Shown here: piece after piece, positions 1,103-51,815 of the stretch
How the letters are laid out: the number at the start of each line of letters is the position of its first letter
Position numbering within the stretch: position 1 is the first letter of the stretch
Source: Arcobacter nitrofigilis DSM 7299
GTDB taxonomy: Bacteria > Campylobacterota > Campylobacteria > Campylobacterales > Arcobacteraceae
DNA length: 64,000 bases
Assembly (NCBI RefSeq): GCF_000092245.1
Contig: NC_014166.1
Location: forward strand, 2,542,001 to 2,606,000
Direction of reading: 5' to 3'
The notes under the pieces: generated by a model
Told to the model about the DNA's origin: nothing
Seen by the model: only the letters and a program-made list of their open reading frames with translations
Database searches by the model: none
Program-made: the position numbers and the translations under genes

Positions 1103-2833
1103 TTAATTTAATTTGTGATTAAATTCAGGAACTATCTCTTTTAATACTTTTATTTTATCTTCACTTATCAGAAGTTCATCAATCTTCTTATTTAATAAAT
1201 CTATATCAAACAGCGTAGAACTTGCAACTGTGATTGACTCATAATCTGTATTCTTATCACTATCATTGATAAGTAATTCTTCGTATAACTTCTCACCAGG
1301 TCTTAACCCACAAAATTCTATTTGTACATTTTCTCTACCACTTAGCTCTATCATTTTTTTAGCCAAATCAACTATTTTTATAGGTTCTCCCATATCAAGA
1401 ATAAATATCTCTCCACCTTTTCCTATACTTGCAGCTTGTAATACAAGTTCACAGGCCTCAGGTATGAGCATAAAATATCTAGTAATATCAGGGTGAGTCA
1501 CAGTAATAGGACCACCTGATTCAATTTGTGATTTAAACTTAGGAATAACACTTCCACTACTTCCTAAAACATTCCCAAATCGTACAGCTACAATTTCTGT
1601 AGAATCTGACTTAACATTTTGTGCATAAAGTTCACAAATACGTTTTGTGGTCCCCATAACATTTGTAGGACGTACTGCTTTATCAGTAGAAATTAGTACA
1701 AATTTCTCAACCTCATATTTTATAGATAAATCTATGCAATTTTTGGTCCCTATTATGTTATTTGATATTCCTTCTAAAATATTATCTTCAACCAATGGCA
1801 CATGTTTATAAGCTGCTGCATGAATCACTATTTGAGGTTTATATTTTTTAAAAGTATTTTCTATAAATCCAAAATTTCTAACCGTTTGCATAACAGGAAT
1901 AACAATATCTGAATTTAACTCTTCAGTTATTTGGTAAAGATTAAATTCACTATGATCTAATAAGATTAGTTGTTTTGCACCAAACTTTTTACACTGCCTA
2001 GATATTTCACTACCTATACTTCCACCAGCACCTGTGATTAGTACTACTTTATCTTTTATGAAGTTTTCAATTTTTTCTTTATCTAAATCTTTTGGATGAC
2101 GTGCAAGTAAATCCTCTACAGAAATATCTTTTAACTGTGTAGAGTAATCTTTTTCTTGTAGTATTTCACTCAGAGATGGAAGTATTTTAATTGTTTTAAA
2201 ATATGGACTTAATTCATCGTAAATAAATTTTATTCTACTTTTACTTGCACTTGGCATTGCTATTACTAAAAGTTCATATTTTTGCTTTTGAATTATATTT
2301 TTTAACTTTGATTTAGAAAGTATTTGTATCCCATCAATACTTCTTTTCTGGAGCTTTTTAGAATCATCAACAAAATATTTTATCAAATATTGACTATTTC
2401 TGTACTCTTCACTTAATTTTGTTCCAGCTTTTCCAGCACCATAAATAACAACTCTTTTATCTTTTATTACTCTACATTTATTTATAAAATAGTTATAAGA
2501 ATACATTAAAAAGTTTATAGAAAAAAGATATAAAAAAAGTTCACTAGCAAGAAGTGCAAATCTTACAGTACCATAATATATTGGTAAGTAAATAACAAAT
2601 GCTGCAAGATAAACAATACTTTTAATTAAGAATGTTCGTGTAGTAGATTTACTCCAAGATAGGGAATAATCTTTATAAATTAAGAATGAAACAATAATTC
2701 TTATACATATAACACCTAAGATAATATTTACTTGTGCCTTTTGATGAAATATAAAAAAAGTCCAATAAAATGTAATAAAACTTAAAAAGATAATCACTAA
2801 AATATTTAAAACTCTTTTATCCAAAGTAAACAT
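1103..2833 (-). CDS. wbpM: WbpM/PglF-type UDP-GlcNAc 4,6-dehydratase, membrane-anchored
   Basis: A 576-residue membrane-anchored nucleotide-sugar 4,6-dehydratase. The N-terminal 120 residues contain four hydrophobic segments, then a first nucleotide-binding fold (GAGKAG near 132), and a catalytic SDR domain with GAGGSIG at about 268-274. The active-site segment has S-T-D-K at 382-385 and Met393-x3-Lys397 in place of the usual Tyr-x3-Lys, the arrangement known from the large membrane dehydratases PglF and WbpM. These convert UDP-GlcNAc to UDP-2-acetamido-2,6-dideoxy-4-keto-hexose. It is the last gene of the glycan run, directly after the WbpL-like transferase and a WbpK/V-like reductase, the same set that in Pseudomonas makes UDP-D-FucNAc or UDP-D-QuiNAc as the first sugar. 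Family assignment is firm; the exact product is inferred. Confidence 0.9.
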   Translation of the reverse strand: MFTLDKRVLNILVIIFLSFITFYWTFFIFHQKAQVNIILGVICIRIIVSFLIYKDYSLSWSKSTTRTFLIKSIVYLAAFVIYLPIYYGTVRFALLASELFLYLFSINFLMYSYNYFINKCRVIKDKRVVIYGAGKAGTKLSEEYRNSQYLIKYFVDDSKKLQKRSIDGIQILSKSKLKNIIQKQKYELLVIAMPSASKSRIKFIYDELSPYFKTIKILPSLSEILQEKDYSTQLKDISVEDLLARHPKDLDKEKIENFIKDKVVLITGAGGSIGSEISRQCKKFGAKQLILLDHSEFNLYQITEELNSDIVIPVMQTVRNFGFIENTFKKYKPQIVIHAAAYKHVPLVEDNILEGISNNIIGTKNCIDLSIKYEVEKFVLISTDKAVRPTNVMGTTKRICELYAQNVKSDSTEIVAVRFGNVLGSSGSVIPKFKSQIESGGPITVTHPDITRYFMLIPEACELVLQAASIGKGGEIFILDMGEPIKIVDLAKKMIELSGRENVQIEFCGLRPGEKLYEELLINDSDKNTDYESITVASSTLFDIDLLNKKIDELLISEDKIKVLKEIVPEFNHKLN

Positions 2834-3795
2834 TATTCAAAAGCCTTTTTTTTATCTACAAAATATATACTAGCATACAAAAGAGTAAGAGATATGATAA
2901 ATGCTATAAAAATATTTGAAACATAGTATACAATAACAAATAATAAAATATTGATAAAAATAGATGCTATTACTACTTTACTATGACTCCAACCACTTTG
3001 AGTAAGTCTTTGATAAGCATGTTTTTTATGCGCTTGACTAAGCTTTTCACCATTTTTCTTTCTTCTATAAAGTGTCAAAGTAGCATCAAACCAAAAAACT
3101 CCAAATAAAATAATCCAAATCCAAAAATTTGTACTCTCTTCATTTGCATAATATATAGTAAATATTGCAATATTATAACCTAAAAGAGTACTTCCCACAT
3201 CACCCATAAATATCTTAGCCTTATGCCAGTTCCAAATTAAAAAACCAAGCACAGCAACAGCTAAAATTAAAAAGTGATTCCCACCAAACAAAGCAAATCC
3301 AGCAAGAGATAAAAACAGAGCTTCACTTCCAGCATAGCCATCAATACCATCTAAAAAATTATAAAGATTTATAAACCAAATAATCATAAAAAAAGCAAAA
3401 ATATTAGTAAAAATATGATTTTCTATTGAAAATAAACCCAAATTTATACTATCAAGACCACCTAAAGCATATAGCCCAAGTAAAGAGACAAGAGATTGAA
3501 CCATAAGCCTTAATTTTGCACTTAATTCAAATAAATCATCAAAAAAACTAACAACAGAAATAATAACTCCAACTAAAAGTGCATAAAAAAGTGTTTGATC
3601 AATCTGTTTTGTAAAATATAAATAAATCAAACCAATAAACCAAGTAATTGCAATAGCAATACCTCCACCATGAGGGGTAGGAGTAGTATGAGAACTTCTA
3701 TCATTTACATGAGCAACAAGAGACTTTTTGATAGCATAGTTCTTTATCAAATATGTTAAAAAAAGAGAGACTACTACTAAAACTAAATAAATCAA
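2833..3795 (-). CDS. wbpL: WbpL/WecA-like undecaprenyl-phosphate sugar-1-P transferase
   Basis: A 320-residue polytopic membrane protein of the MraY/WecA family, which transfers a HexNAc-1-phosphate from a UDP-sugar to undecaprenyl phosphate and so starts glycan assembly on the cytoplasmic face. Family marks are N-D-R-S-S-H near 31-36 followed by P-H-G-G-G, the Asp86-Asp87 pair, N-F-L-D-G-I-D-G at 146-153, I-F-M-G-D-V-G-S at 195-202 and H-K-K-H-A-Y-Q-R at 256-263. About ten hydrophobic segments are visible. It overlaps the reductase gene upstream by four bases and touches the WbpM-like gene downstream. The trio suggests that the first sugar is D-FucNAc or D-QuiNAc rather than GlcNAc; this is inference from gene order. 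Confidence 0.9.
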   Translation of the reverse strand: MIYLVLVVVSLFLTYLIKNYAIKKSLVAHVNDRSSHTTPTPHGGGIAIAITWFIGLIYLYFTKQIDQTLFYALLVGVIISVVSFFDDLFELSAKLRLMVQSLVSLLGLYALGGLDSINLGLFSIENHIFTNIFAFFMIIWFINLYNFLDGIDGYAGSEALFLSLAGFALFGGNHFLILAVAVLGFLIWNWHKAKIFMGDVGSTLLGYNIAIFTIYYANEESTNFWIWIILFGVFWFDATLTLYRRKKNGEKLSQAHKKHAYQRLTQSGWSHSKVVIASIFINILLFVIVYYVSNIFIAFIISLTLLYASIYFVDKKKAFE

Positions 3796-4652
3796 ATATT
3801 CTCTCCTTTAATCATATACTTTATTCCCTCTTCCACACTATATGGATTTTTAAGATTTAGCTTTTCTTTTGTTATTGTATTATCAATTTCTAAACTTCCA
3901 TAAAGTCTTTTGTAAAATGATGGTTTTAATAATTTTAATAAACTTTCAAAAAATGGTATTTTTATTAGGCAAATTTTTTTATCTAAATTTTTAGCGATAA
4001 GTTCAATAAGCCTGGTAGTACTTAAAGGTTCATCATCACTAGCTAAAAATATTCCACTTTTTTGTTGTTTTATTACCTCATCTACTAAATGACAAAGATT
4101 TCCTATATAAACCATACTTCGTTTATTTTCTATTTTTCCAAAAGGTAATACTGGCACTTTATTTGTTAGATTTACAAGTGATTTAATATTTGCTTTTACC
4201 CCATATCCATATACTATGGGAGTTCGTATAATACTTACTTTAAAGTTTTCATCTTCTAACTTTCTAAGCTCAAGTTCTGCTGTAAATTTACTTTTACCAT
4301 ATTCGTCTTCTGGACTACAAATACTATTCTCAGTATATTTGCAAGTAGTTTCTTCTCCATAAACTTTCACTGTACTCATAAATACAAACTGTTTTATACC
4401 CGATTCTTTTGCTTTTTGTGCAATATTCAAAGTCTGAGTTACATTTACTCTTTTGTACTCACTAGCACTTGCACCACCCATTTGATGCACTAATGCAGAT
4501 AAATGAAAAACTATATCTATTCCATTACAATCTAAACTATTTATATCATCTTTTAAAAAGCTAAAAGTTTTTATATTGTATTTATTTTTATATTTGTTTA
4601 TAAAATAGTTTCCTATGAAACCTGAAGAACCTGTGATTAATAGTTCTTTCAT
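3792..4652 (-). CDS. SDR reductase/epimerase, WbpK/WbpV-like
   Basis: A 286-residue extended SDR with the nucleotide-binding motif GSSGFIG at 8-14, catalytic Ser93/Thr94 and Tyr118-x3-Lys122. Length and context fit the 4-keto reductases WbpK/WbpV, which reduce the 4-keto product of the WbpM dehydratase to UDP-D-FucNAc or UDP-D-QuiNAc. The gene lies directly before the WbpL-like transferase and overlaps its neighbours by four bases on both sides. A UDP-HexNAc 4-epimerase role cannot be excluded from sequence alone, because the same fold and motifs are shared. Confidence 0.75.
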   Translation of the reverse strand: MKELLITGSSGFIGNYFINKYKNKYNIKTFSFLKDDINSLDCNGIDIVFHLSALVHQMGGASASEYKRVNVTQTLNIAQKAKESGIKQFVFMSTVKVYGEETTCKYTENSICSPEDEYGKSKFTAELELRKLEDENFKVSIIRTPIVYGYGVKANIKSLVNLTNKVPVLPFGKIENKRSMVYIGNLCHLVDEVIKQQKSGIFLASDDEPLSTTRLIELIAKNLDKKICLIKIPFFESLLKLLKPSFYKRLYGSLEIDNTITKEKLNLKNPYSVEEGIKYMIKGENI

Positions 4653-5761
4653 ATTTTACCTTCATATATTTCAAAATGTTTTTCCACTACTTTTTTAATA
4701 TCAAACTCTTTTCCTGCTAATTTTCTTCCTGCTTTTCCCATACTATTTCTTAAGTTTTCATCTATTATCAGTTTTTCAATCATTTGAGCCAGTGATTCAG
4801 AATTTTTTACTTTACATAAAAGTCCTGTAATATCAGGTACAATAGCATCACTACAACCAGGTACATCTGTAGTGACTACTGCTCTACCACAAGCAGCTGC
4901 TTCTATAAGAACTTTTGGTAATCCTTCTCTATAAGAAGGAAGAACTACAATATTTGAATCTGAAAATGCACTTGCAATATTACTACTAAATCCATATACA
5001 TTTACAAATCCACTTTTTTTTATCATTTTGATATCTTCATTAGTTAAACTTGCTGGATTATCAATATCTACATCTCCATATAATTCAAACTCTACATTTG
5101 GTAATTTTTGTTTTACAATTTCTGCAGCTTCTATATATTCAAATACACCCTTATCTTTTAAAAGCCTACATGCCATTGATACTTTTATATTTTCATTGTT
5201 TTCTTCAATATAGCTATATTGAGATAGATCAACTCCAGAACCTCTTATCAAAGTAGTTTTTACATTACTTATAGATTTTACTAAAGCATTATCATCTGGA
5301 TTTTGTACTATTACATGTGAATTTTTTCCACCAAGAGCAAAACTATACATAGTTTTAATTATATATCTCACAACAGAAGCTTCAAATCCTTGTTTAATAA
5401 AAATAAATCCAAGTCCAGATATAGAAAATACTTTTTTGTTAATACTTAAAAATCTTGAAACTATTCCACCATAAAGTATAGGTTTAATAGTTACAAAATG
5501 AGCGACATTAGGACTTATTTCTTTTAATACTTTATATATTTCAAGAAAAGCCTTTATCTCTCCTGTTATTCCTATACCACTTCGTGAGATCTCGAGAGGA
5601 TGTACTTTTAAACCCAAACTTTCTAAATATTTTTTTTTGTCAGTTATAGCACAAGAGATATGCACTTCATAACCTTTTTTAAGTGCCTCCAAAGCTAAAG
5701 GTAATCTATGTGATATAAAAAACCAATCTACATTTACTACAAATAATATTTTTTTAATCAA
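4649..5761 (-). CDS. GT4 family glycosyltransferase (PglA/WbpU-like)
   Basis: A 370-residue cytoplasmic GT-B enzyme of family GT4. The C-terminal donor-binding half shows the usual basic pair (Arg199, Lys202) and the E-x7-E element Glu279/Glu287 in the segment E-G-L-P-K-V-L-I-E. The N-terminal acceptor domain opens with a short hydrophobic strand as in PglA and WbpU, which add a HexNAc to the undecaprenyl-linked first sugar. Its place next to the reductase, WbpL-like and WbpM-like genes suggests that it adds the second residue. It overlaps the preceding asnB by eight bases. Sugar donor and linkage cannot be read from the sequence. Confidence 0.85.
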   Translation of the reverse strand: MIKKILFVVNVDWFFISHRLPLALEALKKGYEVHISCAITDKKKYLESLGLKVHPLEISRSGIGITGEIKAFLEIYKVLKEISPNVAHFVTIKPILYGGIVSRFLSINKKVFSISGLGFIFIKQGFEASVVRYIIKTMYSFALGGKNSHVIVQNPDDNALVKSISNVKTTLIRGSGVDLSQYSYIEENNENIKVSMACRLLKDKGVFEYIEAAEIVKQKLPNVEFELYGDVDIDNPASLTNEDIKMIKKSGFVNVYGFSSNIASAFSDSNIVVLPSYREGLPKVLIEAAACGRAVVTTDVPGCSDAIVPDITGLLCKVKNSESLAQMIEKLIIDENLRNSMGKAGRKLAGKEFDIKKVVEKHFEIYEGKI

Positions 5762-7652
5762 GCCACTTTTCCTTCCACATCTGATACATCAAAATAAACC
5801 ATATAGTTGTACCTATTTCAGCCCCTTCAAAAAATTTATTTTTTATACTATTTATCTCATCTTTATCAAAAATATTTTGATCTAACTTTTCTTCATCTAA
5901 ATATTTTAAAACTAGAGGTTTTAATTCATCTCGTAGCCATTTATTTAGTGGTATTTGAAATCCTGATTTTGGTTTGTCTACTAATTCTTGTGGAAGATAT
6001 TTATAAAGAATTTGCCTAAGTAAATATTTACCTTGCTTATTTTTGTATTTTTGTTCAACTGGTACTCTTGCCATATACTCTATAATTCTATGATCAAGTA
6101 GAGGCTCTCTACCTTCAAGACTTACACTCATAGTAGCTCTATCAACTTTTGTAAGGACATCATCATTCATAAAAATCTTATAATCAACTGCCATCATTTG
6201 CTCTAAAAACTTTGTATTATCTACTTTATTCCACTTTATAAAAAGCTCATTATCTCTTTTTATTTTTAAGAATCTTACTATCTCATCTTTATCTACATAG
6301 CTACTTGCATTTTCAAACATCTCCTCGAGGCTATCGCTATTTATAGCTCTTTTAAATTTAATATACTTATCTTTGATATTTGTTTGTTTTAAATTCTTTG
6401 GTAATTTATCATTGACAAATTCTATTGTATCTGCACTTAAGAAATTTAATCCAATTTTTAAAACTCCTCTTTTAAAACTATTTGAAAATATATTTTGGAA
6501 TTTATTAAGAAAAAAGTATTTACTATACCCACAAAAAGTTTCATCACCTCCATCTGCACTTAGTGCAACTGTCACACTTTGTCGTGCTAACTTTGATACT
6601 ATCATAGTAGGTAGTGCTGAACTATCACCAAAAGGCTCATCATAATAAAAAGGTAAACTTTCTACCAAATCTAACATATCGCTGTTGTTCATATAATATT
6701 CAGTATGATTTGTACCTAGATATTCTGCTATCGTTTTAGCATGTTTTGCTTCATTGTACTTTTCATCATCAAAACCAATAGTAAAAGTATTTATTTTTTT
6801 ACCTTGCTTCTTAGCCAAGATTGAAGCCACAAGTGAACTGTCATATCCACCACTTAAAAAAACTCCAACAGGTACATCTGAGACCATTCTTAAATCTATT
6901 GAATCATCTAAAATATTTTCAATATTCTCTAATATTTGATTTTCACTTTTATCAAATTTTTCTTTTAAATAAAAATCATTCACATCCCAATATTTTATAA
7001 TATCAAATTTTAAAGTTTCAATATCATATTCTAAATAGTGTCCAGCTTCTAGCTTATAACAGTTTTGAAATATAGTATAAGGTGCAGAGATATAGCCAAA
7101 TTGAAAAAAATAAGGAAGTACTTCTAAGTTTTGCTCTTTTTTAAACTCTGGATGCTTGTGAAAGGATTTTATCTCAGATGAAAACATAAACTGATTTTCA
7201 CCTACATAATAAAAAAGAGGCTTTACCCCAGCTCTATCTCGCACTAAAACTAGTTTATTTTGTACTTTATCTAAAACAGAAAAAGCAAACATCCCTATAA
7301 ATTTATCAATACACTTTATACCCCATTGTTTATAACTATAAAGTATAACTTCTGTATCACTATTAGATATAAATTTATAATCTAATTTTTTAAGTTCTTC
7401 TTTTATATTTTTAAAATTATAAACTTCACCATTAAATACTATAATATACTTTCCACAATCACTTACAAAAGGTTGATGACCATGAGAACTTAAATCCTGA
7501 ATTGATAATCTATTATGTCCAAAATACACACCACTACTTTCATCAAAATAAGTTCCATTATCATCAGGACCTCGATATGATTGAATTTTCAACATATCAT
7601 TTATAATATATTCTTTTTTGCGTTTATCTATAAAGCCTGCTATTCCACACAT
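5754..7652 (-). CDS. Asparagine-synthase-type glutamine amidotransferase (paralogue 1)
   Basis: A 632-residue AsnB-type protein. The N-terminal Ntn glutaminase domain starts with Met-Cys2-Gly-Ile and has Arg48, Asn74-Gly75 and Asp99 as expected for ammonia release from glutamine. The synthetase domain has the pyrophosphate loop SGGYDS at 267-272. Inside O-antigen loci such enzymes (for example WbpS of Pseudomonas O6) amidate hexuronic acids rather than make asparagine; that role is favoured here because this is one of three paralogues in the locus and uronate-forming genes are present. Its start overlaps by 13 bases the end of a truncated polymerase gene, pointing to a deletion joint just in front of it. 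Confidence 0.9.
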   Translation of the reverse strand: MCGIAGFIDKRKKEYIINDMLKIQSYRGPDDNGTYFDESSGVYFGHNRLSIQDLSSHGHQPFVSDCGKYIIVFNGEVYNFKNIKEELKKLDYKFISNSDTEVILYSYKQWGIKCIDKFIGMFAFSVLDKVQNKLVLVRDRAGVKPLFYYVGENQFMFSSEIKSFHKHPEFKKEQNLEVLPYFFQFGYISAPYTIFQNCYKLEAGHYLEYDIETLKFDIIKYWDVNDFYLKEKFDKSENQILENIENILDDSIDLRMVSDVPVGVFLSGGYDSSLVASILAKKQGKKINTFTIGFDDEKYNEAKHAKTIAEYLGTNHTEYYMNNSDMLDLVESLPFYYDEPFGDSSALPTMIVSKLARQSVTVALSADGGDETFCGYSKYFFLNKFQNIFSNSFKRGVLKIGLNFLSADTIEFVNDKLPKNLKQTNIKDKYIKFKRAINSDSLEEMFENASSYVDKDEIVRFLKIKRDNELFIKWNKVDNTKFLEQMMAVDYKIFMNDDVLTKVDRATMSVSLEGREPLLDHRIIEYMARVPVEQKYKNKQGKYLLRQILYKYLPQELVDKPKSGFQIPLNKWLRDELKPLVLKYLDEEKLDQNIFDKDEINSIKNKFFEGAEIGTTIWFILMYQMWKEKWLD

Positions 7653-8002
7653 AGTGAACTCTTTTTAATTAGTTGTTTTTTTTGATATATAAAATAAATT
7701 GAATAAAAAGAATCAATAAAAGGAATAGGGAAGAATCCAAAAAATAAACCAGCAATATAGACTGCTCCTCCTGAACTAAAATTACTCTCATTTAAAAAAT
7801 CAAAATTTCTTATATTCTGAGCAACTGAAAGATAATGAAACTGATCAGGCATATAGGTAGTTTCAAATAAAAATCCATTAAATAAAAATATACATGATAA
7901 ATGCAACAATAAAATAAACAAGTATTTAGCAGGTATATTGTAATATCTATTAATAATTATAAATATAGTTAAAATGTATAATATATTTACTGTATCAAGC
8001 AT
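7640..8002 (-). pseudogene. Truncated Wzy-like glycan polymerase (N-terminal fragment)
   Basis: An open frame of 120 codons encoding two or three hydrophobic segments and the motif M-P-D-Q-F-H-Y-L followed by an Arg-containing helix, which resembles the first periplasmic loop of some Wzy-type O-antigen polymerases. The ATG at 8002 has GAGGA upstream and overlaps the preceding glycosyltransferase stop by eight bases; an earlier ATG at 8017 is less well placed. A polymerase would need about 350-450 residues and around ten membrane segments, yet the frame stops after a short lysine-rich tail and merges into the start of asnB. The remaining three quarters appear to be deleted. It could be translated as a short membrane peptide, but polymerase activity is unlikely. 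Confidence 0.6.
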
Positions 8003-9122
8003 CAAAAACATCCTCAAATTTCTTTATTATTTTTTTAATATCAAAATCACTAGCTCTATTCTTTGCTTTGTTTCTATATTTATTTCTCAAATCTTCATCA
8101 TTTATTATCAACTTCATAGCAGTACTTAATCTTTTAATATCATTTAATGGAGTTAAAACTCCATATTCACTAATCTCTATATCATCTTCTATTTGAAAAT
8201 GCAGATCACTATTTGGAGCGAGTATCTCTCTAGGTCCACTTTGACAGTCTGTACTTATAATTGGAAGTCCACAAGATAGAGCTTCAAGTAATACATTTGG
8301 AAGTCCTTCATATAAAGAACTAAATACAAAACAATCTGATTGTACTAAATACTTATACGGATTTGATTGTTTACCTAAAAGGATAACTTTATTTTGTAGA
8401 TTTAAACTCTCTATTTGTTTTTCAAGAGTATCTCTTAATTCTCCATCTCCTATAATATAAAGTTTTGCATCTATATCTTCCATAGACTCTATTAGTATTT
8501 TATGATTTTTTCCTCTATCTAGTCTTCCTATTGTTATAAAAGTAAATTTCTCATCTCTATAATTTACACATTCTTTAGATAATTCTTTTATAATTTTTAA
8601 ATCTATTAGATTATAAATAGTTTTTACCTCTTGAATATTAAAATTATTAACTAAATCCCTACAGTTTCCTTTAGAATTCCCAATAACAATATCTGCTTTT
8701 CGATACAGTCTTTTTATCAAAAATTTATTGATAAAACCTTGTACCCCATTTTTATGTTGTAAAGAGGGCATGGCTCTTTCACTTATAATAACCTTACTTT
8801 TAAACTCTAAAATTTTTGCTATAATATTTATATAATTTGATCTGTTCATAAAAGATACTGAGATATCACTATCATTTAGTTTCTTATATTTCCAAGCTAA
8901 AACAGGCAGTTTTAAAAGCTTTTTTATCCCACTTTCACTAGGATTTGAATTTTCAAGATAAATTATTTTTATATTTTTTGGTATATCATAAAAAATAGTA
9001 TCATTCATCAAAAAAAGTGTGATTTCATACTTTTCTTTTAATTCATCTAATAGAACAGATACAACTCGTTCTGCACCACCACTTGCTAGTGAATAAATCA
9101 GAATAGAGAGTTTTTTTTTCAT
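7995..9122 (-). CDS. GT4 family glycosyltransferase
   Basis: A 375-residue GT-B glycosyltransferase. The N-terminus carries S-G-G-A-E-R-V at about 14-20, typical of the WbnH/PglJ/PglH-like group, and the C-terminal half has G-R-L-D-R-G-K near 199-205 and the E-x7-E element Glu272/Glu280. It presumably extends the lipid-linked oligosaccharide in the cytoplasm. The start codon is joined to the stop of the ABC transporter gene. Codons 2-4 form a run of nine A residues, a possible slippage site, though such runs are common in this AT-rich DNA. Donor sugar and linkage are unknown. Confidence 0.87.
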   Translation of the reverse strand: MKKKLSILIYSLASGGAERVVSVLLDELKEKYEITLFLMNDTIFYDIPKNIKIIYLENSNPSESGIKKLLKLPVLAWKYKKLNDSDISVSFMNRSNYINIIAKILEFKSKVIISERAMPSLQHKNGVQGFINKFLIKRLYRKADIVIGNSKGNCRDLVNNFNIQEVKTIYNLIDLKIIKELSKECVNYRDEKFTFITIGRLDRGKNHKILIESMEDIDAKLYIIGDGELRDTLEKQIESLNLQNKVILLGKQSNPYKYLVQSDCFVFSSLYEGLPNVLLEALSCGLPIISTDCQSGPREILAPNSDLHFQIEDDIEISEYGVLTPLNDIKRLSTAMKLIINDEDLRNKYRNKAKNRASDFDIKKIIKKFEDVFDA

Positions 9123-10816
9123 TATTGTAAAACCAACTTTTTATTTTCTATTCTATAAACTTTTTCACATCTATCTATAGTACTCAATCTATGAGCTATA
9201 ATAATAAGTGTTTTATCCTTACTGATATTATAAATTTCATCCATTATCTCTTTTTCTATAGCTTCATCTAAAGCTGATGTTGCCTCATCTAATACTAAAA
9301 TTTCTGGTTCTTGATATAATGCACGAGCTATAGCTATACGTTGTTTTTGTCCACCGCTAAGCTTAATACCTCCTTCACCAACAAAAGTATTGATGCCATT
9401 TTGATGTTCTTCTAAGAAGTTTAGTATTTTTGATCTTTTTAATACTTCTTTAATTTTTAATTCATCATATTCCAATCCAAAAGAAATATTTTCTGCAACT
9501 GTTCCATCAAATAAATACACGCTTTGTGGAATATACCCTACTTTTTTTCGCAAACTTTTTATATTAGACTCATTAATAACTATTCCATCTATTTGTATAT
9601 CTCCACTTAAAGGTCTGAACAAGCCTATGATAATATCAACCATAGTACTTTTACCACTGCCACTTGCTCCTACAAAAGCAATTTTTTCACCTTTTTTAAT
9701 GTCTAAATTTATATTTTCAAGAACTTTTGTTTTCTCACTATAACCAAAAGTAAGATTATTTAATCTAATTATTTTTTGAAAAATTACTTTTTCATCACCT
9801 AATTTTTCACAATCATACATTAAATCATTATGTATCAAATCTAAAGATTTATGATAATAGAGAATTTGATTATAGCTACTTAAAAGTCTATTTGAAGATG
9901 GCATAAGCCTATAAAGTCCTAAAATAAACATAGAAAGTACTCCTAAACTTGAAGAAATATCACTTTCATATCTAAATACAAGATAAACTACAACTGATGC
10001 TATAATTCCAAAACCTAGAGTTTCTAAAAATACTCTAGGAAAATGAGATAGTGTTTCATTTATTATTCCACTTTTCGAGAAACCATAACTAGCATTATTG
10101 AATCTATTAAGTATTAGCTTATCATTTGACTGTAGCTTAATAATTTTAAAATTTCCAAATGTACTATTTAAAATCTCAAAAAAATTTTTTTGATACTCCT
10201 CTCTAATAGTTCCTTGATTTTTAATAATAGGTGATATTTTTTTAACTAGAAACAAAGCATTTAGAGTTAAAAATAATGTCATCACAAGTGTTATTTTCCA
10301 ATTTATATACAACATAGCACTATATATAAACATAACAACAAAAACTTCACTTATCATAAGTAATACAGCTGAAAGCATAGCGGTAAGATTCTGTGTTTCA
10401 TTGATAATCAATTTTGAAAGCTCACTGCTATTTCGAGATATAAACTGATGATAATTCATCCCTAAATAGTTTTCAAATAATCGAAAAGCCAAAAGATGTG
10501 TTCTACCTTTAGAAAATTTTGCTAAAAAATAAAAGTATAAAATATTTAATCCACCTCTAATGATATAAAAACATATCAATAAACATCCAAAAACTATTAC
10601 AAAATCAACATTACTTTTAAACTCAAAAAAGTTATAAAAAATTTTATAATAGTTATTTGATTCTATCATATTAAAATCACTTGCAACTGATATAAAAGGC
10701 ATGATAGCAGCTACTCCAATGGTTTCTATCAAAGCAATTAGTACAGAAAATATTATTAGAAATAGCAAAAACTTCCTATCTTTCTTTGTTAAAAGTGAGC
10801 TAAGTTTTTTATACAT
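9122..10816 (-). CDS. PglK/MsbA-like ABC flippase
   Basis: A 564-residue half-transporter with an N-terminal membrane domain (about six segments within residues 15-310) and a C-terminal ATPase. Walker A is GASGSGKS at 383-390, the signature LSGGQ lies at 486-490, and Walker B I-L-V-L-D-E is at 506-511. Proteins of this shape in glycan loci (PglK of Campylobacter, the Wzk type of Helicobacter) flip undecaprenyl-linked oligosaccharides to the periplasm. No MATE/PST-type Wzx flippase is seen anywhere in the locus, so this is the likely flippase. It lies between an AsnB paralogue 14 bases upstream and a glycosyltransferase that begins at its stop codon. Confidence 0.9.
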   Translation of the reverse strand: MYKKLSSLLTKKDRKFLLFLIIFSVLIALIETIGVAAIMPFISVASDFNMIESNNYYKIFYNFFEFKSNVDFVIVFGCLLICFYIIRGGLNILYFYFLAKFSKGRTHLLAFRLFENYLGMNYHQFISRNSSELSKLIINETQNLTAMLSAVLLMISEVFVVMFIYSAMLYINWKITLVMTLFLTLNALFLVKKISPIIKNQGTIREEYQKNFFEILNSTFGNFKIIKLQSNDKLILNRFNNASYGFSKSGIINETLSHFPRVFLETLGFGIIASVVVYLVFRYESDISSSLGVLSMFILGLYRLMPSSNRLLSSYNQILYYHKSLDLIHNDLMYDCEKLGDEKVIFQKIIRLNNLTFGYSEKTKVLENINLDIKKGEKIAFVGASGSGKSTMVDIIIGLFRPLSGDIQIDGIVINESNIKSLRKKVGYIPQSVYLFDGTVAENISFGLEYDELKIKEVLKRSKILNFLEEHQNGINTFVGEGGIKLSGGQKQRIAIARALYQEPEILVLDEATSALDEAIEKEIMDEIYNISKDKTLIIIAHRLSTIDRCEKVYRIENKKLVLQ

Positions 10817-10830
10817 TTTTAATTATCCCT

Positions 10831-12639
10831 CTACTTTATTCTCATAATATTCCAAAGAACATATTCGAAATTTTTTCCATTTTGATGGTCTTGAAATATT
10901 TTATTTAAATATTGTTTATTAAATCTTTCATCTAAACTTTGAATTTTGTCATAAACTATATCTTTTAACTCTTTTCTAAACCAATGTTTCAAAGGTACAG
11001 AAAATCCCCGTTTAGGCCTTTCTATGAGCTCTTTTGGAACTTCTTTGTAGAGTATCTCTTTTAAAATAGACTTTGGTCCATGTTTTAGCTTAAGCTTTAT
11101 AGGTAAGCTATAGGCAAATTCTACAATTCTATGATCAAGTAACGGTACTCTTGCTTCTAAACTATATGACATACTAGCCCTATCAACTTTTGTTAGTATA
11201 TCATCAGGCAGATATCTGTGAAAATCTAAACGGCTTAAACTATCTATTAAACTATCTCCATCTAATTCATACTCTAAAATATCCTGTAAACTTACTTCAT
11301 ATTTACCAAATGATTCTCTTGAAAATTCTTTGTCAAATAAACTATTGAGTTCCCAAGGTTTGGTAGAACTATATAAAAGTGCATACAAATTTTGTTCACT
11401 CAATTGTTTTAAAGGATAACTTATTTTCTTTAATTTATCTTGTCCTGAATATTTTCCAATAACAGATAATATAGTTCTCAAAGATTGTGGTATCTGCTTT
11501 AGTTTTTTATAGTAACTTTCAGTAGTAAAATATCTATCATATCCTAAAAACAACTCATCTCCACCATCTCCACTAAGGGCTACTGTTACATAATCTTTTG
11601 TTTTATCACTGAGCAGCAACATAGGCAAACTTGAAGCATCACCAAATGGTTCGTCATAAAATTTATCAAAATCTTCTAAAAGTTTAAAAACATCTTGAAT
11701 ACCAAATTTATATTCATAGTGTTCACTACCTATATATTTTGCTATCTCTTTTGCATAAACTGACTCATCATAAAACTTATCTTCAAATCCTATAGAAAAT
11801 GTTTTTAGCTTTTGGCTTGATTCTTGCTGCATTATACTACTAACTAAACTACTATCAATCCCTCCACTTAAAAAACTACCTACTTCTACATCAGCTAAAA
11901 GTCTATATTTTATACTACTTCTTATAAGTTGCTCGGTCTCTTTCACTGCTTCATTATAACTTATATTGATTTTTTCTTCTGGTAAATCCCAATATTTTTT
12001 TATATCTATATTAACACCATCAAATATAGCATAATGTGCTGGTGGCAGTTTATTAATACCATCATAGTAGCTATTGTCATTTGGTATATAACCAAGAGTC
12101 ATAAACTGTATCAGTGCTTTATTTGAAGTAGTTTTCTTAAGATGTTCACCAAAACCCTTCAACTCACTAGCAAAAGAAAATTCCCCCTTTTGCATGGTAT
12201 AATAAAGTGGTTTTATCCCAACCCTATCTCTTATTAAATAAAGCTTTTGAGCTATCTTATCAAATAATCCTATAGCAAACATACCAATAAATTGTTCTAT
12301 TGCTTTTTCAATACCAAATTCTGTAAAAGCCCAAAGAATTGTTTCTGTATCACTTGTAGTTCGAAATTTTGAAAATTGCAATTGTGTTCTAATCTCGAAA
12401 TGATTATAAATTTCACCATTAAAAACTATAATAAATCTTTCATTTTCCATAGGCTGATTAGCATGGTTTTCTAAGTCTTGTATTGATAATCTATTATGTC
12501 CAAAATATAAATTTTTATTTAAAAATTTATATTCTTTTACTATAGTATCATCTGGACCTCTATGTACCATAATAGAATTTTGTTTAACTACTTCACTATA
12601 AGATAAAGCCGTATTAAAATAACCTAATATGCTACACAT
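10831..12639 (-). CDS. Asparagine-synthase-type glutamine amidotransferase (paralogue 2)
   Basis: A 602-residue AsnB-type protein with the glutaminase nucleophile Cys2 (Met-Cys-Ser-Ile, slightly unlike the usual Cys-Gly-Ile), the F-N-G-E-I-Y-N segment at about 73-79, the S-D-T-E motif, and the synthetase loop SGGIDS at 258-263. It is clearly a separate subfamily member from the other two copies in length and loop sequence. It overlaps the methyltransferase upstream by eight bases. As with its paralogues, amidation of a uronic acid carboxylate during glycan building is the best guess; housekeeping asparagine synthesis is possible for one of the three. Confidence 0.9.
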   Translation of the reverse strand: MCSILGYFNTALSYSEVVKQNSIMVHRGPDDTIVKEYKFLNKNLYFGHNRLSIQDLENHANQPMENERFIIVFNGEIYNHFEIRTQLQFSKFRTTSDTETILWAFTEFGIEKAIEQFIGMFAIGLFDKIAQKLYLIRDRVGIKPLYYTMQKGEFSFASELKGFGEHLKKTTSNKALIQFMTLGYIPNDNSYYDGINKLPPAHYAIFDGVNIDIKKYWDLPEEKINISYNEAVKETEQLIRSSIKYRLLADVEVGSFLSGGIDSSLVSSIMQQESSQKLKTFSIGFEDKFYDESVYAKEIAKYIGSEHYEYKFGIQDVFKLLEDFDKFYDEPFGDASSLPMLLLSDKTKDYVTVALSGDGGDELFLGYDRYFTTESYYKKLKQIPQSLRTILSVIGKYSGQDKLKKISYPLKQLSEQNLYALLYSSTKPWELNSLFDKEFSRESFGKYEVSLQDILEYELDGDSLIDSLSRLDFHRYLPDDILTKVDRASMSYSLEARVPLLDHRIVEFAYSLPIKLKLKHGPKSILKEILYKEVPKELIERPKRGFSVPLKHWFRKELKDIVYDKIQSLDERFNKQYLNKIFQDHQNGKNFEYVLWNIMRIK

Positions 12640-13447
12640 TTTGATTAATTAAATTTTTTTTAAAAACAAATTCATTACAACCCATTTTACCACCAACTGT
12701 TACCATATTCTCTAATACAAAACCTCTATCTTTATAAAAAATAAAAATTTCTTCAGGCTTAGCTGTTTCAAATGGATATCCACCAATCCAATCCACTACA
12801 TCCGTATATAAACTCATACCTCTCAATGGATCACTATATCTTTTAAATGGGTTTTTCCCTCTCCCTATATCAAGTATACACAATCCTATTGCAAAATATA
12901 ATGTATAAATATAAGACATCAATTTTTTCACCAAAACAGGTGAAGATACATAAAAAAGTTTTATTTTTTTCCAAATAGGAGTTAACAACTGTGTATTATA
13001 TATAGCTACTACTAATATTCCATCATCTTTTACACACTTAGATGCATTATCGAGTGCTTTATACATATTACCAGTATGATGTAATACACCCCAAGAATAT
13101 ACTACATCATATTTTCCTAATTTTGTCATATATTCTTCATCCAATACATCACCTTTTTTAACAATCCAGTTTTCATCATTATTTGCAAACATTTTTTTAG
13201 TGTACTTTGTTGCTTCAACACTAAACTCATCATAATCAAATGATATAACTTTTGCGCCAAGATTATAAGCACTTAAAGAAGATAAGCCACTACCACTACC
13301 AATATCTAAAAATGTTTTGCCCTCTAAGTCATCAACCAGCATTAGCTTTTTTAATGAGATTTTTGACTTCTCAATTTTTTCTTTACTAAGACTTTCTAAA
13401 AATAATTGCCAATTTTTCCCAAAATCAAATCTTTTTTCTCTACTCAT
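12632..13447 (-). CDS. Class I SAM-dependent methyltransferase
   Basis: A 271-residue methyltransferase with SAM motif I F-L-D-I-G-S-G-S-G at about 46-54, the acidic strand end F-D-Y-D at 70-73, and the W-G-V-L-H-H-T-G segment near 122 that is typical of the Methyltransf_11/23 group. The C-terminal half includes a hydrophobic stretch around residues 170-195 and then a substrate region of unknown specificity. It lies between a GT-C-like membrane protein and an AsnB paralogue with eight-base overlaps on both sides, so it probably methylates a sugar or lipid-linked oligosaccharide of this pathway. The acceptor atom cannot be deduced. Confidence 0.8.
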   Translation of the reverse strand: MSREKRFDFGKNWQLFLESLSKEKIEKSKISLKKLMLVDDLEGKTFLDIGSGSGLSSLSAYNLGAKVISFDYDEFSVEATKYTKKMFANNDENWIVKKGDVLDEEYMTKLGKYDVVYSWGVLHHTGNMYKALDNASKCVKDDGILVVAIYNTQLLTPIWKKIKLFYVSSPVLVKKLMSYIYTLYFAIGLCILDIGRGKNPFKRYSDPLRGMSLYTDVVDWIGGYPFETAKPEEIFIFYKDRGFVLENMVTVGGKMGCNEFVFKKNLINQNV

Positions 13448-14930
13448 TCATTTCCTTATACATTTTTTTTACCCAAAATGGTTTTAAATCTTTATTTTCA
13501 AATCCTTTTACACTAAGAATAATATACTTTTCATTTTCTAACAATATATCAAAAAGTTCATTATCAACTTTATCAAAAAATTCTATCCAATACTCCTTTT
13601 GTAAAAGTATTGCACCTAAGTTCCAATTTTTAATTGTTATTTCTAGTCTTTCATTAAAAACTGGATAATATGGTTCTAAAATTTTAAAACCATATCCATG
13701 ACCACCCCAAAAAACTTTTTTACCAGTTCTGTAAACAATTTGATCAGATGGAGTTAATGGTATTGCTAAAATTCTATCAACATTTGAAGAATTTAGCATA
13801 TTTATTGCTTCTTCTAAATCCTTGTCATAAACTTGATTGATACCTTTGTAAAATTTAAATATACTTATTATTGTCAACATAAATACTAAAAAAAGCAAAA
13901 TCTTATTATCAAAACCATTTACATCAATATTAGTGTAAATCATAAAATAAGATAAAATTGTAACTAAATTATATGTATATAAATTTCCAGAACCTAAACA
14001 TAGAAAAATATCAATAAAACTTGTTAATAATACAAATAAAATCATTGCTAAAATAATTATACCAAAATAATTAAATTGAAAATTATACATTACAAAAATA
14101 GTAAATGGAAGCATCCCAATAATTAAAGAAAACTTTTTAACTATTGATTTTATTCCATTTCCATGAAGTCTATTTTTATAAGTGAAATTATCTTTACCAT
14201 ATAATTTAGATTCATAAAATTGATGTGCTCCAAGTTTATATCTATTTCTATGCCAAAATTTTACAATATCAATATGTGCTTTAAAATAATTTTTGTAATT
14301 AAAAAATAAAAAAGCAATAATATTAGCAAATAAATAACTTAACAAAGGTATAATGCTTAAATAAAAAAAAGACAAAATAACAAGTAAAAAGAAATATAGT
14401 TGATGTGACATTTTATGTGTAAATAGTAATAATGTCGTGAAGGATATAATTGGAATCAATAAATAAAATTGATGATATTCAAAATATCCCCAAAATAGTA
14501 AAATTAATATATCTAAAATAATAGCACCAAATATACGAGAATTAATTTGATTATCATAATAAACTAATATTGGTGCGCTTATATAAAAAATTATTGCAAA
14601 AAAAAGTGGAATTGAAAATTGCATATTTAAAAAATATGCAAATCCTATAATCAATGTTAATCTAAAGAACGATATTAATTGAATTAAGAAAATTGAATAT
14701 TTAAATATGTTATTTGGTAAAATAGCCAAAAAATAACCAAAAAATGGTGGATACCACTGCTTTATTTCGAGTAAATACTCTGGTAAATTTGGTGGGCAGG
14801 TCTTTTGAGCTCGGACAGCATCTCTATATTTTAACCAATACCATTGATCAACCGCTTTTGATTGAGCTTTCTTTAATAAAATAACTCTAAAAAAAAGTAT
14901 TAAAAAAATATACACTAAAAAATCAATCAT
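13440..14930 (-). CDS. Polytopic membrane protein, GT-C glycosyltransferase-like
   Basis: A 496-residue protein with about nine to eleven hydrophobic segments and a soluble C-terminal part from about residue 370. The first external loop carries an acidic residue (Asp28) and then Q-W-Y-P-P-F-F near 58-64; an early Asp plus a Y-P-P motif is characteristic of GT-C enzymes that use polyprenyl-phosphate sugars in the periplasm. The internal L-F-T-H-K-M-S-H segment also recalls that group. It might add a branch sugar after flipping or, less likely, act as a Wzy-type polymerase in place of the truncated one. It is strongly AT-rich, and no close family can be named from sequence alone. Confidence 0.55.
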   Translation of the reverse strand: MIDFLVYIFLILFFRVILLKKAQSKAVDQWYWLKYRDAVRAQKTCPPNLPEYLLEIKQWYPPFFGYFLAILPNNIFKYSIFLIQLISFFRLTLIIGFAYFLNMQFSIPLFFAIIFYISAPILVYYDNQINSRIFGAIILDILILLFWGYFEYHQFYLLIPIISFTTLLLFTHKMSHQLYFFLLVILSFFYLSIIPLLSYLFANIIAFLFFNYKNYFKAHIDIVKFWHRNRYKLGAHQFYESKLYGKDNFTYKNRLHGNGIKSIVKKFSLIIGMLPFTIFVMYNFQFNYFGIIILAMILFVLLTSFIDIFLCLGSGNLYTYNLVTILSYFMIYTNIDVNGFDNKILLFLVFMLTIISIFKFYKGINQVYDKDLEEAINMLNSSNVDRILAIPLTPSDQIVYRTGKKVFWGGHGYGFKILEPYYPVFNERLEITIKNWNLGAILLQKEYWIEFFDKVDNELFDILLENEKYIILSVKGFENKDLKPFWVKKMYKEMNE

Positions 14931-25065: not shown

Positions 25066-25943
25066 TTATTATCCTTTAATATTCTATTTAAATATTTACC
25101 GTAAGAATTTTTTTGTAATGATTTAGATAAAACTAAAAGTTTTTCTTTTGTGATATACCCCATTAAATATGATATTTCTTCAAGACAAGCCACTTTTAAA
25201 CCTTGTCTTTTTTCTATTGTTTCAATAAATTGAGAAGCTTCGAGTAAAGATTCGTGAGTACCAGTATCTAGCCAAGCAAATCCTCGTCTCATGATTTCTA
25301 CCTTTAATTTATTCTTTAATAAATATTCATTATTGACTGATGTTATTTCTAATTCACCACGTGAACTAGGTATTATGCTTTTAGCAATTTTAATTACATC
25401 ATTTGTATAAAAATATAAACCTACCACAGCAAAATTACTTTTAGGTTTTTTAGGTTTTTCTTCTATACTCAAAGCATTCCAACTTTTGTCAAATTCAACA
25501 ACACCATACCTTTCTGGATCATTTACATAGTAACCATAAACTACAGATTTGTTTTCTTTTTCTACTATTCTTATACTATTTTGTAACATAATTGTTAAGT
25601 CTTGTCCATAAAATATATTATCTCCAAGTATTAAACATACATTGTCATCTTTTATAAAATCTTCACCAATTATAAATGATTGTGCCAAGCCATCTGGAGA
25701 TTCTTGAACTTTATATTGTAAATTTATACCTAATGTACTCCCATCACCTAAAAGTTCAATAAATCTTTCGTTATCATCTGGAGTTGTTATAATCAATATA
25801 TCTTTTATACCAGCTAACATTAATACAGATAAGGGATAGTAAATCATTGGCTTATCATATACAGGTAAAAGTTGTTTACTAATAACCTTTGTAATAGGAT
25901 ATAGTCTTGTACCACGGCCTCCCGCTAGTATTATCCCTTTCAT
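25062..25943 (-). CDS. rfbA: Glucose-1-phosphate thymidylyltransferase RfbA/RmlA
   Basis: A 293-residue nucleotidyltransferase with the G-G-R-G-T-R-L-Y-P motif at about 8-16, the [11 protein letters not shown] loop, and G-D-N-I-F-Y-G near 107. It makes dTDP-glucose from glucose-1-phosphate and dTTP, the entry step of the dTDP-sugar branch. Length is normal. Its start overlaps the end of the radical SAM gene by four bases, so both are translated from one message. Confidence 0.95.
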
Positions 25944-27016
25944 TTTAATTCCGCAGTCCCATATCCACTACATAATTTACAAATATTTATATTTTTTTGA
26001 TTTGTATGTATTTTATTTCTAAAATTTTGATATTTTTTACCATTCCAAATATCTTCAAATTCTTCCTCTAATATATTTCCCATGGTTTCTTTACCACAAG
26101 CATCATGACAACAAGGAGAGATATCTCCATTTGCCATAATATTAAGAGAATAGTATATCCATGGACAGTCATTATTAGGGATAACTCTTCTCTGAAGTTT
26201 TCCCTCTTTAAATTTTTCAGGGTCATATATCCAATTATCTTTATTAGTTGGTAAATATTGAATACCTTGCTCAACTGTTCTTACACAGGGATCAATTATA
26301 TTAAAACTATCCACTCCAATTTCTTTACACCATTGTATGAACTCATCTACTTGATGTTCATTATGTTTCATCAAAATATATCCAGCTTCAAGATGCACTT
26401 TACTTTTATGCTTTTTTTTAAGCTCAATAGTCTCTACCAAATTATTTCTTATATTTTCTAAATTAGTATTAACTCTATATATTTCATGGGTTTCTTGTGT
26501 TGTTCCACCCATTTGAAAAGAGACTAAATCTATACCACTATCAATAATACCTTGAGGAATATTTTTGACATCTCCATTGGTACAAGTAGAAATGAAGCTT
26601 ATTCCTTTTTCTTTTGCATACTTAATTTGATTTACCCATTCTTTATTTAAAAAAGGTTCACCCATGAAATAGTACATCAAAGTATTTGTGTAAGGTCCTA
26701 TTTTATCTATAATAATTTTAAAATCATTAAAAGATAAAAATGCTTTTTTCCTTTCCAATATATCCGCACCAGTTTCACATACTGGACATTTTGCATTACA
26801 AACATTAGTTGGTTCAATAGTAATATGAACAGGCTTTCCTAAAATTTTACTATCTTTTTTAATTAATGAGTATGTTGACTTAATATGTTCTTTACTACCT
26901 TTTTTACCTTGAAGTAATCCACTAACACCTTTTTTTAGCCCTAATAAATTTCTAGTTAATAAATACAAATTATCATACTGCTTAATTCTATTTTTTAATT
27001 TATCTATAGTTTTCAT
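25940..27016 (-). CDS. Radical SAM/SPASM-domain protein
   Basis: A 358-residue radical SAM enzyme. The [4Fe-4S] motif Cys73-x3-Cys77-x2-Cys80 follows I-E-P-T-N-V, and the C-terminal part from about residue 285 carries several cysteines (C-P-W near 285, S-P-C-C-H-D-A-C near 300, and I-C-K-L-C near 345), as in SPASM proteins with an auxiliary cluster. Such proteins recur in O-antigen loci but without a proven reaction; candidates are sugar epimerisation, dehydration or modification of a peptide or lipid carrier. The ATG at 27014-27016 directly follows the TGA at 27017-27019 of the upstream decayed gene, so it was probably translationally coupled to that gene. No precursor peptide gene is seen nearby. 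Confidence 0.8.
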
Positions 27017-37872: not shown

Positions 37873-39073
37873 ATATATCTCTTGTATAAACTTTGTCTTT
37901 TTCATCAAGTATATCTTCACTTAATCTATTTGCTACAATTACATCAGAAATATTTTTAAATTCTTCTAAACTTTTAATTACTCGTGAATTAAAAAATTCA
38001 TCTTCAGTTATAACTGGTTCATAAACAACTACTTCTATTCCTTTTGCTTTTATTCTTTTCATTATACCTTGAATAGCTGAACTTCTAAAGTTATCACTTC
38101 CTGATTTCATTACAAGTCTATATATTCCTACTATTTTTCCAGGAAGCTTTTCGCTTTGCGAAACCGCATTTGCTAGCTTTGATTTTCTTAACTTTTTAAT
38201 AATAGAATCTGCAATAAAATCTTTTCTTGTACTATTTGATTCAACAATGGCATTGATTAGATTTGAAGGAACATCAGCATAATTTGCTCTAAGTTGTTTT
38301 GTATCTTTTGGTAAACAATATCCACCATAACCAAAGCTTGGATTATTATAATGAGTTCCAATTCTAGGATCTAAGCCTACACCTTCTATTATTTGTCTAC
38401 TATCTAAATTATGAGATTGTGCATAAGAATCTAATTCATTAAAATATGCAACTCTCATTGCTAAGTATGTATTTGCAAAAAGTTTTATGGCTTCTGCTTC
38501 AGTTGAGTCTGTAAAAAGAATATCAATATTCTCTTTTATTGCACCTTGTGCTAAAAGATTTGCAAATATTGTTGCTCTTTCACTTTTCTCACCAACAATT
38601 ATTCTTGAGGGATATAAGTTATCATATAAAGCAAGTCCTTCTCTTAAAAATTCTGGTGAAAATATGATATTATCAGTTTTGAACTTTTCTCTTAGTATTT
38701 TTGTATAACCCACAGGAATAGTTGATTTTATTACCATTGTGGTATTTGGATTTATATTTAATATATCTGCAATAACATACTCAATTGATTTTGTATTAAA
38801 ATAGTTAGTTTCTGGATCATAATCTGTTGGCGTTGCAATAATTACATAATCAGCATCTTTATAGGCTTGTTCTTTATCTAAAGTAGCAGTAAAATTTAAA
38901 TCATCTCTTTTAAGATACTCTTCAATCTCTTTATCTTCTATTGGAGATATCTTTTTCTTTAACATCTCAACTTTTTTAGGAACAATATCTAAGGCAACTA
39001 TTTCATTGTGTTGTGATAATAAAATACCATTTGATAAGCCAACATATCCAGTACCTGCTATTGCTATTTTCAT
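37856..39073 (-). CDS. ugd: UDP-glucose 6-dehydrogenase Ugd
   Basis: A 405-residue UDP-glucose dehydrogenase of the short E. coli type: [11 protein letters not shown] at 4-14, S-T-I-P-V-G-Y near 117, E-F-L-R-E-G-L-A near 142, and the catalytic Cys in [12 protein letters not shown] near 250. It makes UDP-glucuronate. The usual length is about 388; the excess includes an inserted stretch of about 13 residues around 302-315 ([11 protein letters not shown]) coded by a perfect small hairpin. The C-terminal F-N-S-D-S and stop lie in the AATTC-rich flank of the next gene. It overlaps wzz by four bases. Confidence 0.93.
38149..38163. repeat. Small palindrome inside ugd
   Basis: The sequence TTTCGC, then three bases, then GCGAAA forms a perfect six-base stem with a three-base loop, inside an in-frame insertion of about 40 bases in ugd. 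It is more G+C rich than its surroundings. It resembles protein-coding palindromic elements known from other small genomes, though no second copy was found in this window. Confidence 0.5.
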
Positions 39074-39834
39074 TTAATTTTTTCCTCTTTTTTTATCCCT
39101 TTTATAAATTCTATAAAAAATATTAAAAATATTGATAAAATAAATCCTGAGACAAAAGCAGCTATTACAATTAATTTTTTCTTAGGTATTATTTGATTGG
39201 TTATATCTTTTCCTATTTGTTTAGTATCTTGAATATTATAAGATGATATACTAAACTCTAGATCTTTTATCTTTGATATTAGTTCAAACTTTAAAGCTAA
39301 ACGTCCATCAAACTTATTTTCATTTTTTTCTAATAACTCATTTTGAGATTTTAGGTTATTAATATTTCCCATTATTAAAGATTTATAATTGTTAATTAAT
39401 ACTTTATGTTCATCAATTAATTTTTTTATAATCTTATCTAAAAGATTTGTTGCATCTGTATTTGATTTTGATTGACTTGTTATTTCTATCAGGTTTGGAG
39501 TTGACTTTACTAAAATTACTGAAGATATAATTTCTTTTTGATTTTTTTCAACATTATCGATATTTATTATTTCTAGTTTTTTTATAAGACTTTTTGGATT
39601 TTCAATATAATTGTTATTGTTATTGTTATTGTTATTACTATTACTATTACTAAAACTACCAACTTCTATTACCCCTTTTACTTCATAGATTGGCGTTTTT
39701 GTATATGCATATATTACTGCTCCTATAGTAACTATTAATGTAAATATAATAATAAACTTTTTATGACTCCAAATAGTTAAAAAAAGTTCTCTTAAATCTA
39801 TTTCATCTTCTTGTAGTTGATTATTTTGTACCAA
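39070..39834 (-). CDS. wzz: Wzz-type chain-length determinant
   Basis: A 254-residue polysaccharide co-polymerase with two membrane helices (about 26-45 and 225-245) and a periplasmic coiled-coil domain between them, the Wzz/PCP-1 layout. The N-terminal [14 protein letters not shown] segment and [11 protein letters not shown] are typical. It normally sets the number of repeat units added by a Wzy polymerase. Odd feature: residues about 62-76 are a run of Ser-Asn and Asn encoded by hexanucleotide repeats, in a loop near the membrane. The start overlaps galE by 14 bases. Confidence 0.85.
39610..39651 (-). repeat. Hexanucleotide microsatellite in wzz
   Basis: On the minus strand three AGTAAT units are followed by four AACAAT units, 42 bases in all, coding for Ser-Asn and Asn repeats. 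Because each unit is six bases, gain or loss keeps the frame and changes only the length of the Asn-rich loop. Confidence 0.9.
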
Positions 39835-51804: not shown

Positions 51805-51815
51805 AAAATACCTTT

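Follow-up and report, generated by a model that had tools for sequence, protein, structure and literature searches.

The locus described here raises the question of how a bacterium whose O-antigen-type gene cluster holds only the beginning of a wzy-like polymerase gene assembles its surface polysaccharide. The window (the whole 64,000-nucleotide stretch analyzed, positions 2,542,001-2,606,000 of a complete 3.19 Mb genome) carries one large surface-polysaccharide cluster on the minus strand, at bases 1103-40840 (Table 1). A sequence-only reading of this DNA had described a Wzy-like N-terminus that stops early and runs into asnB, beside an intact Wzz, and had offered three outcomes: polymerization is lost and single repeat units are transferred, the polymerase lies elsewhere, or a GT-C-like protein of the same cluster has taken over.

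Table 1. Features of the polysaccharide locus that bear on the truncated gene (positions in the window).
Feature	Position	Strand	Remarks
wzy-like remnant	7640..8002	-	120 codons from ATG 8002; Wzy-derived residues 3-104, to about 7691
Junction/leader before asnB	7653-7690	-	holds A8 tract 7676-7683
asnB-type amidotransferase	5754..7652	-	632 aa; forms 3' edge of truncation
Glycosyltransferase, GT4-type	7995..9122	-	upstream of remnant
PglK/Wzk-type ABC flippase	9122..10816	-	NF050066 715 bits; sole flippase recognized in locus
Second asnB-type amidotransferase	10831..12639	-	74% to G075
GT-C-like polytopic protein	13440..14930	-	496 aa, 8 predicted TM; candidate periplasmic transferase/polymerase
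Wzz chain-length regulator	39070..39834	-	254 aa, 2 TM
WecA/WbpL-type initiating phosphoglycosyl transferase	2833..3795	-	
NAD-dependent epimerase/reductase	3792..4652	-	
Glycosyltransferase	4649..5761	-	
WbpM/PglF-type nucleotide-sugar dehydratase	1103..2833	-	locus end

The open reading frame (ORF) at 7640-8017 spans 125 codons from a TTG. The ATG at 8002 is the likelier start because a frame beginning there overlaps the upstream glycosyltransferase gene, at its stop, by 8 nt, and at the other end the ORF runs 13 nt into asnB. Three transmembrane (TM) segments are predicted in its 120 residues. Wzy polymerases have 10-14 TM segments and large periplasmic loops. Searches of Pfam and NCBIfam models gave no match to the ORF, and searches among relatives in the genus, the family and the order returned one convincing homologue, a 366-aa protein of genome G049 (L012:5974-7074 = L003; E 1.8e-10) with about 10 predicted TM segments, encoded among glycosyltransferases, an epimerase and a WecA-type enzyme. 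This full-length homologue is known from that one fragmented, metagenome-assembled genome. ORF residues 3-104 align with its residues 10-107 at 33-35% identity, with a Smith-Waterman score of 152, whereas 500 local shuffles averaged 49 (SD 7.6, maximum 77). The two proteins have in common the stretch NxFLFxxxYMPDQFxY, which includes the conserved acidic/aromatic motif YMPDQFxY in the loop after TM2.

The label "Wzy-like" was given to the ORF on the basis of a chain of relationships and not of a library match: the ORF is homologous to the G049 protein, which in turn is related (z 6.2) to a protein of 439 aa from G002, a genome of the same genus, where its locus has a Wzx-like protein. The full-length homologue itself had no match in Pfam (including PF04932, PF14296 and PF14897) or to TIGR04370, and since even this protein escapes them, these curated Wzy models have little power here. 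Wzy polymerases are so diverse that many stay unclassified, and bacterial polysaccharide polymerases are placed in CAZy families GT122-GT135 together with unclassified clusters (PMC10920833). The match to Wzy that the sequence-only reading proposed therefore stands, by way of the intact homologue. A motif resemblance between the ORF and the G002 protein, seen in a three-way alignment, was dropped as a direct link after pairwise shuffling (z -0.7 to -0.8), and read-through profile matches that continued into asnB were set aside as artefacts of the profile. Two of the other weak genome matches were examined and are unrelated cation-efflux-like genes (L004, L005); the remainder had E values of 0.003 or more. 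A tblastn search of plasmids gave no match, and the predicted structure of the full-length homologue, made from two sequences, was too poor for a fold search (pLDDT 40).

With three TM segments against about 10 in its homologue, the ORF is a remnant and not a member of the Wzy polymerases; about 250 codons are gone, and with them most of the TM segments. The position of the loss is marked by asnB, which is 82% identical in DNA to the asnB of L035 (G102), with homology beginning at the start codon, and therefore the ~250 codons were lost at the wzy/asnB junction. In L035, asnB directly overlaps a glycosyltransferase gene of the same kind, with nothing between. The Wzy homology of the ORF stops about 38 bp upstream of asnB, and this leader contains a ribosome-binding-like stretch. 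A tblastn search of the window with two full-length relatives, each cut down to its C-terminal two thirds, gave no match, and a profile search of the genome found no second full-length wzy copy. These results bear out the earlier description of a Wzy-like N-terminus that runs into asnB: the ORF holds the first third of such a gene and is cut off there, and wzy is here most likely a relic. The A8 tract was considered as a site of phase variation, which was rejected, since asnB and not the remaining wzy follows the tract.

The frame is nevertheless open and overlaps both neighbors, so it could be translated, and one may ask if it encodes a functional small membrane protein. We regard this as highly improbable, as no short relative was found in 104 family or 299 order genomes, the sole homologue is full length, and a conserved relative complete at ~120 residues, which would have spoken against truncation, was absent from about 350 genomes.

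The surroundings of the remnant were compared with those of relatives of the upstream glycosyltransferase. The following gene could be assigned in 12 of them and is asnB (four), another glycosyltransferase (seven) or an acyltransferase (one), never wzy; the wzy piece thus sets this genome apart. Such a piece could have come in with an inserted wzy, of which it is the part left, or it could be all that survives of a wzy that has been lost elsewhere. The comparison covers one strain of the species, and the truncation may be old or recent, strain-specific or fixed. O-antigen loci often contain broken wzy genes, and in this respect the gene is an ordinary decayed remnant. The membrane proteins beside the glycosyltransferase in G046 and G049 were also considered and are acyltransferases. 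One acyltransferase gene beside a relative of the glycosyltransferase in G049 (L037:6526-7556) is split into two adjacent ORFs and is possibly another broken gene.

Together, these data show that the loss ends at the asnB start, and they make it likely that the ORF is dead, being what is left (~105 residues from the N-terminus) of a Wzy-type polymerase of ~365 residues, and that the locus exports its glycan by PglK with polymerization by this wzy lost. The sequence-only reading had seen no other clear Wzy in the window, and this was confirmed: the only polytopic proteins of the locus are the WbpM-like protein, the WecA-like starter, the PglK-type ABC exporter, the remnant and the GT-C-like protein. 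The Wzz was likewise confirmed as present (Pfam Wzz match, E 3.6e-15) and would be orphaned if no Wzy acts.

A working polymerase could instead be encoded at an unlinked site, and Wzy proteins, being so diverse, often evade detection, so that an unrecognized one may be present elsewhere in the genome. A single protein in the genome matches PF04932 (Wzy_C), at genome position 2,235,219, and it just passes the repeat-unit-polymerase model TIGR04370 (40.1 bits, cut-off 40). However, five of its 10 neighbors match the heptosyltransferase family PF01075. Based on this setting, which is where WaaL is expected, the protein is most likely the WaaL ligase, and the genome would otherwise be without a recognized ligase. 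EpsG and PF14296 are absent genome-wide. The proposal of a polymerase elsewhere is thus weakened, and we consider it quite unlikely.

With wzy truncated and no replacement recognized, polymerization may simply have been lost, so that one unit is ligated, giving semi-rough LPS. In known systems wzy mutants place one repeat unit on the core (PMC12004945). Against this, Wzz and the rest of the locus have been kept open, and the closest relative of the module, in genome G075, suggests that the Wzy-less state is a lasting design and not damage. We treat the ligation of single units as possible but doubtful.

The comparison of related loci that contain PglK is a small sample and shows association only. 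The PglK-type exporters of these relatives are 35-78% identical to that of the window, which scores below the 1000-bit cut-off of NF050066. In three loci of the family, PglK occurs together with a Wzz resembling that of the window and with a polytopic Wzy-like protein of full length: G133 (L051+L079; PglK 47%, 408 aa), G106 (L050+L083; PglK 50%, 379 aa) and G049 (L012+L078; PglK 35%, 366 aa). None of these three loci had a Wzx by similarity or a match to the GT-C-like protein, and in Wzy-type loci of this family PglK seems, as far as gene content can tell, to replace Wzx. The G049 locus is from the same family as the window and holds PglK-like and Wzz-like genes with the full-length homologue of the window's wzy; unlike the window, it has no GT-C, its polymerase is intact and its PglK is only 35% identical.

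By contrast, the closest relative of the window module is the locus of G075 (L060+L062), from another family. Here PglK is 78%, asnB 74%, GT-C 61%, the glycosyltransferase 58%, the starter 67% and WbpM 70% identical, and Wzy, Wzx and Wzz are all absent from the complete locus. It differs from the window in having no wzy remnant, no Wzz and no asnB between the glycosyltransferase and the next glycosyltransferase gene. The one Wzy_C gene of G075 is about 300 kb off, adjoining a heptosyltransferase-like gene. G102 has PglK, a distant relative of the GT-C (27%) and a Wzx/Wzy set. Judged by its genes, the window is a hybrid, in which PglK and GT-C are combined with an orphan Wzz and a broken wzy.

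The GT-C-like protein owes its label to its topology and to a D-x-W-Y motif after TM1 (D-Q-W-Y in the window), and library and PDB sequence searches lent the label no support. No Pfam or NCBIfam model matched it; in particular, there was no match to STT3 (PF02516) at E values up to 5 and no WWDYG in the sequence. PDB searches with ORF and GT-C profiles and with single GT-C sequences returned nothing usable, and the structure predicted from the single sequence was too poor for a fold search (pLDDT 46). Three homologues were found in 299 order genomes (the window, G075 and G102), each in a locus with PglK, and D-x-W-Y is invariant in them. A 668-aa protein of G102 was considered as an oligosaccharyltransferase and rejected, being an acyltransferase-SGNH protein. 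In the Campylobacter jejuni pgl N-glycosylation locus a PglK-type flippase and a polytopic GT-C-like protein also occur together, as in the window. The window differs from that locus in its WecA-type starter, with PglC not found, and in that its GT-C-like protein has no STT3/PglB Pfam match.

These observations bear on the proposal that the GT-C-like protein took over, using the flipped undecaprenyl-PP glycan as donor for a periplasmic joining of units that Wzz would perhaps still control. The support that the comparison adds to this proposal is circumstantial: G075 keeps the GT-C beside PglK and asnB while lacking any Wzy, the GT-C adjoins PglK in G102 too, the three Wzz/Wzy loci have no GT-C match, and the motif after TM1 is invariant. 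However, the protein matches no polymerase, ligase or STT3 model, its predicted fold is unusable, no Wzz stands beside the GT-C in G075, and in G102 it coexists with a Wzx/Wzy set, such that it may only add a side sugar. We therefore hold the takeover as a tentative possibility. A fuller version, that the GT-C polymerizes PglK-exported undecaprenyl-PP units in the periplasm and that the classical wzy was free to decay once this protein had arrived, with Wzz being kept, is a rather doubtful history.

It is also conceivable, as a fourth outcome beside the three of the sequence-only reading, that no polymerase is needed, with the whole chain being made in the cytoplasm and exported by a PglK/Wzk-type flippase. 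The O chains of Helicobacter pylori are made by this Wzk route, with neither Wzy nor Wzz involved, and Wzk and PglK can substitute for each other (PMC2841628). Like the H. pylori Wzk/WaaL pathway, the window and its genome provide a PglK-type flippase, a WecA-type starter and a single WaaL-like protein, with no intact Wzy recognized. The window differs from it by the Wzz, the wzy relic, which is all that is left of wzy here, and the GT-C-like protein. In addition, PglK accompanies Wzz and a full-length Wzy-like protein in three relatives and so also serves Wzy-type loci, and no processive glycosyltransferase was identified. Export of finished chains is, on this evidence, unlikely.

Returning to the reading we prefer, of a dead wzy in a PglK locus, the gene families suggest that the glycan would be built on undecaprenyl-PP by the WecA-type starter and several glycosyltransferases, flipped by the PglK-type exporter and received by the single WaaL-like ligase. 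Polymerization by this wzy would be lost. Based on the comparison, the locus would now be similar to that of G075, which has PglK and GT-C but no Wzy, and the Wzz of the window would be a leftover of the PglK/Wzz/Wzy arrangement that is intact in G049, G106 and G133. If units are joined in the periplasm at all, this would be the work of the GT-C protein; if they are not, the exported product would be single units or chains completed in the cytoplasm. In either case the related loci suggest that the bacterium can build and export its surface sugar without this wzy.

The remnant by itself is ordinary, but the surrounding locus is of use for testing assembly that relies on a PglK exporter and does not depend on Wzy. 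The window stands between two types, its PglK and Wzz relatives keeping a full-length Wzy-like protein and its PglK and GT-C relative having none. It offers a natural test of an unclassified GT-C replacing Wzy, or of PglK export without a polymerase outside Helicobacter.

Several other features of the window were observed. The polysaccharide locus contains a third asnB-type amidotransferase gene (28178-30178) in addition to the two in Table 1, and the three together suggest amidated uronic acids in the glycan. A radical SAM/SPASM protein is encoded in the sugar-biosynthesis part of the locus (25940-27016) and is 79% conserved in G075. A 23S rRNA intervening-sequence protein gene (PF05635; 37452-37808) lies within the locus, flanked by two nucleotide-sugar genes. 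Downstream of the locus, HlyD-like, C39-peptidase ABC exporter and outer-membrane efflux genes stand in a row as a type I secretion set (50464-56013).
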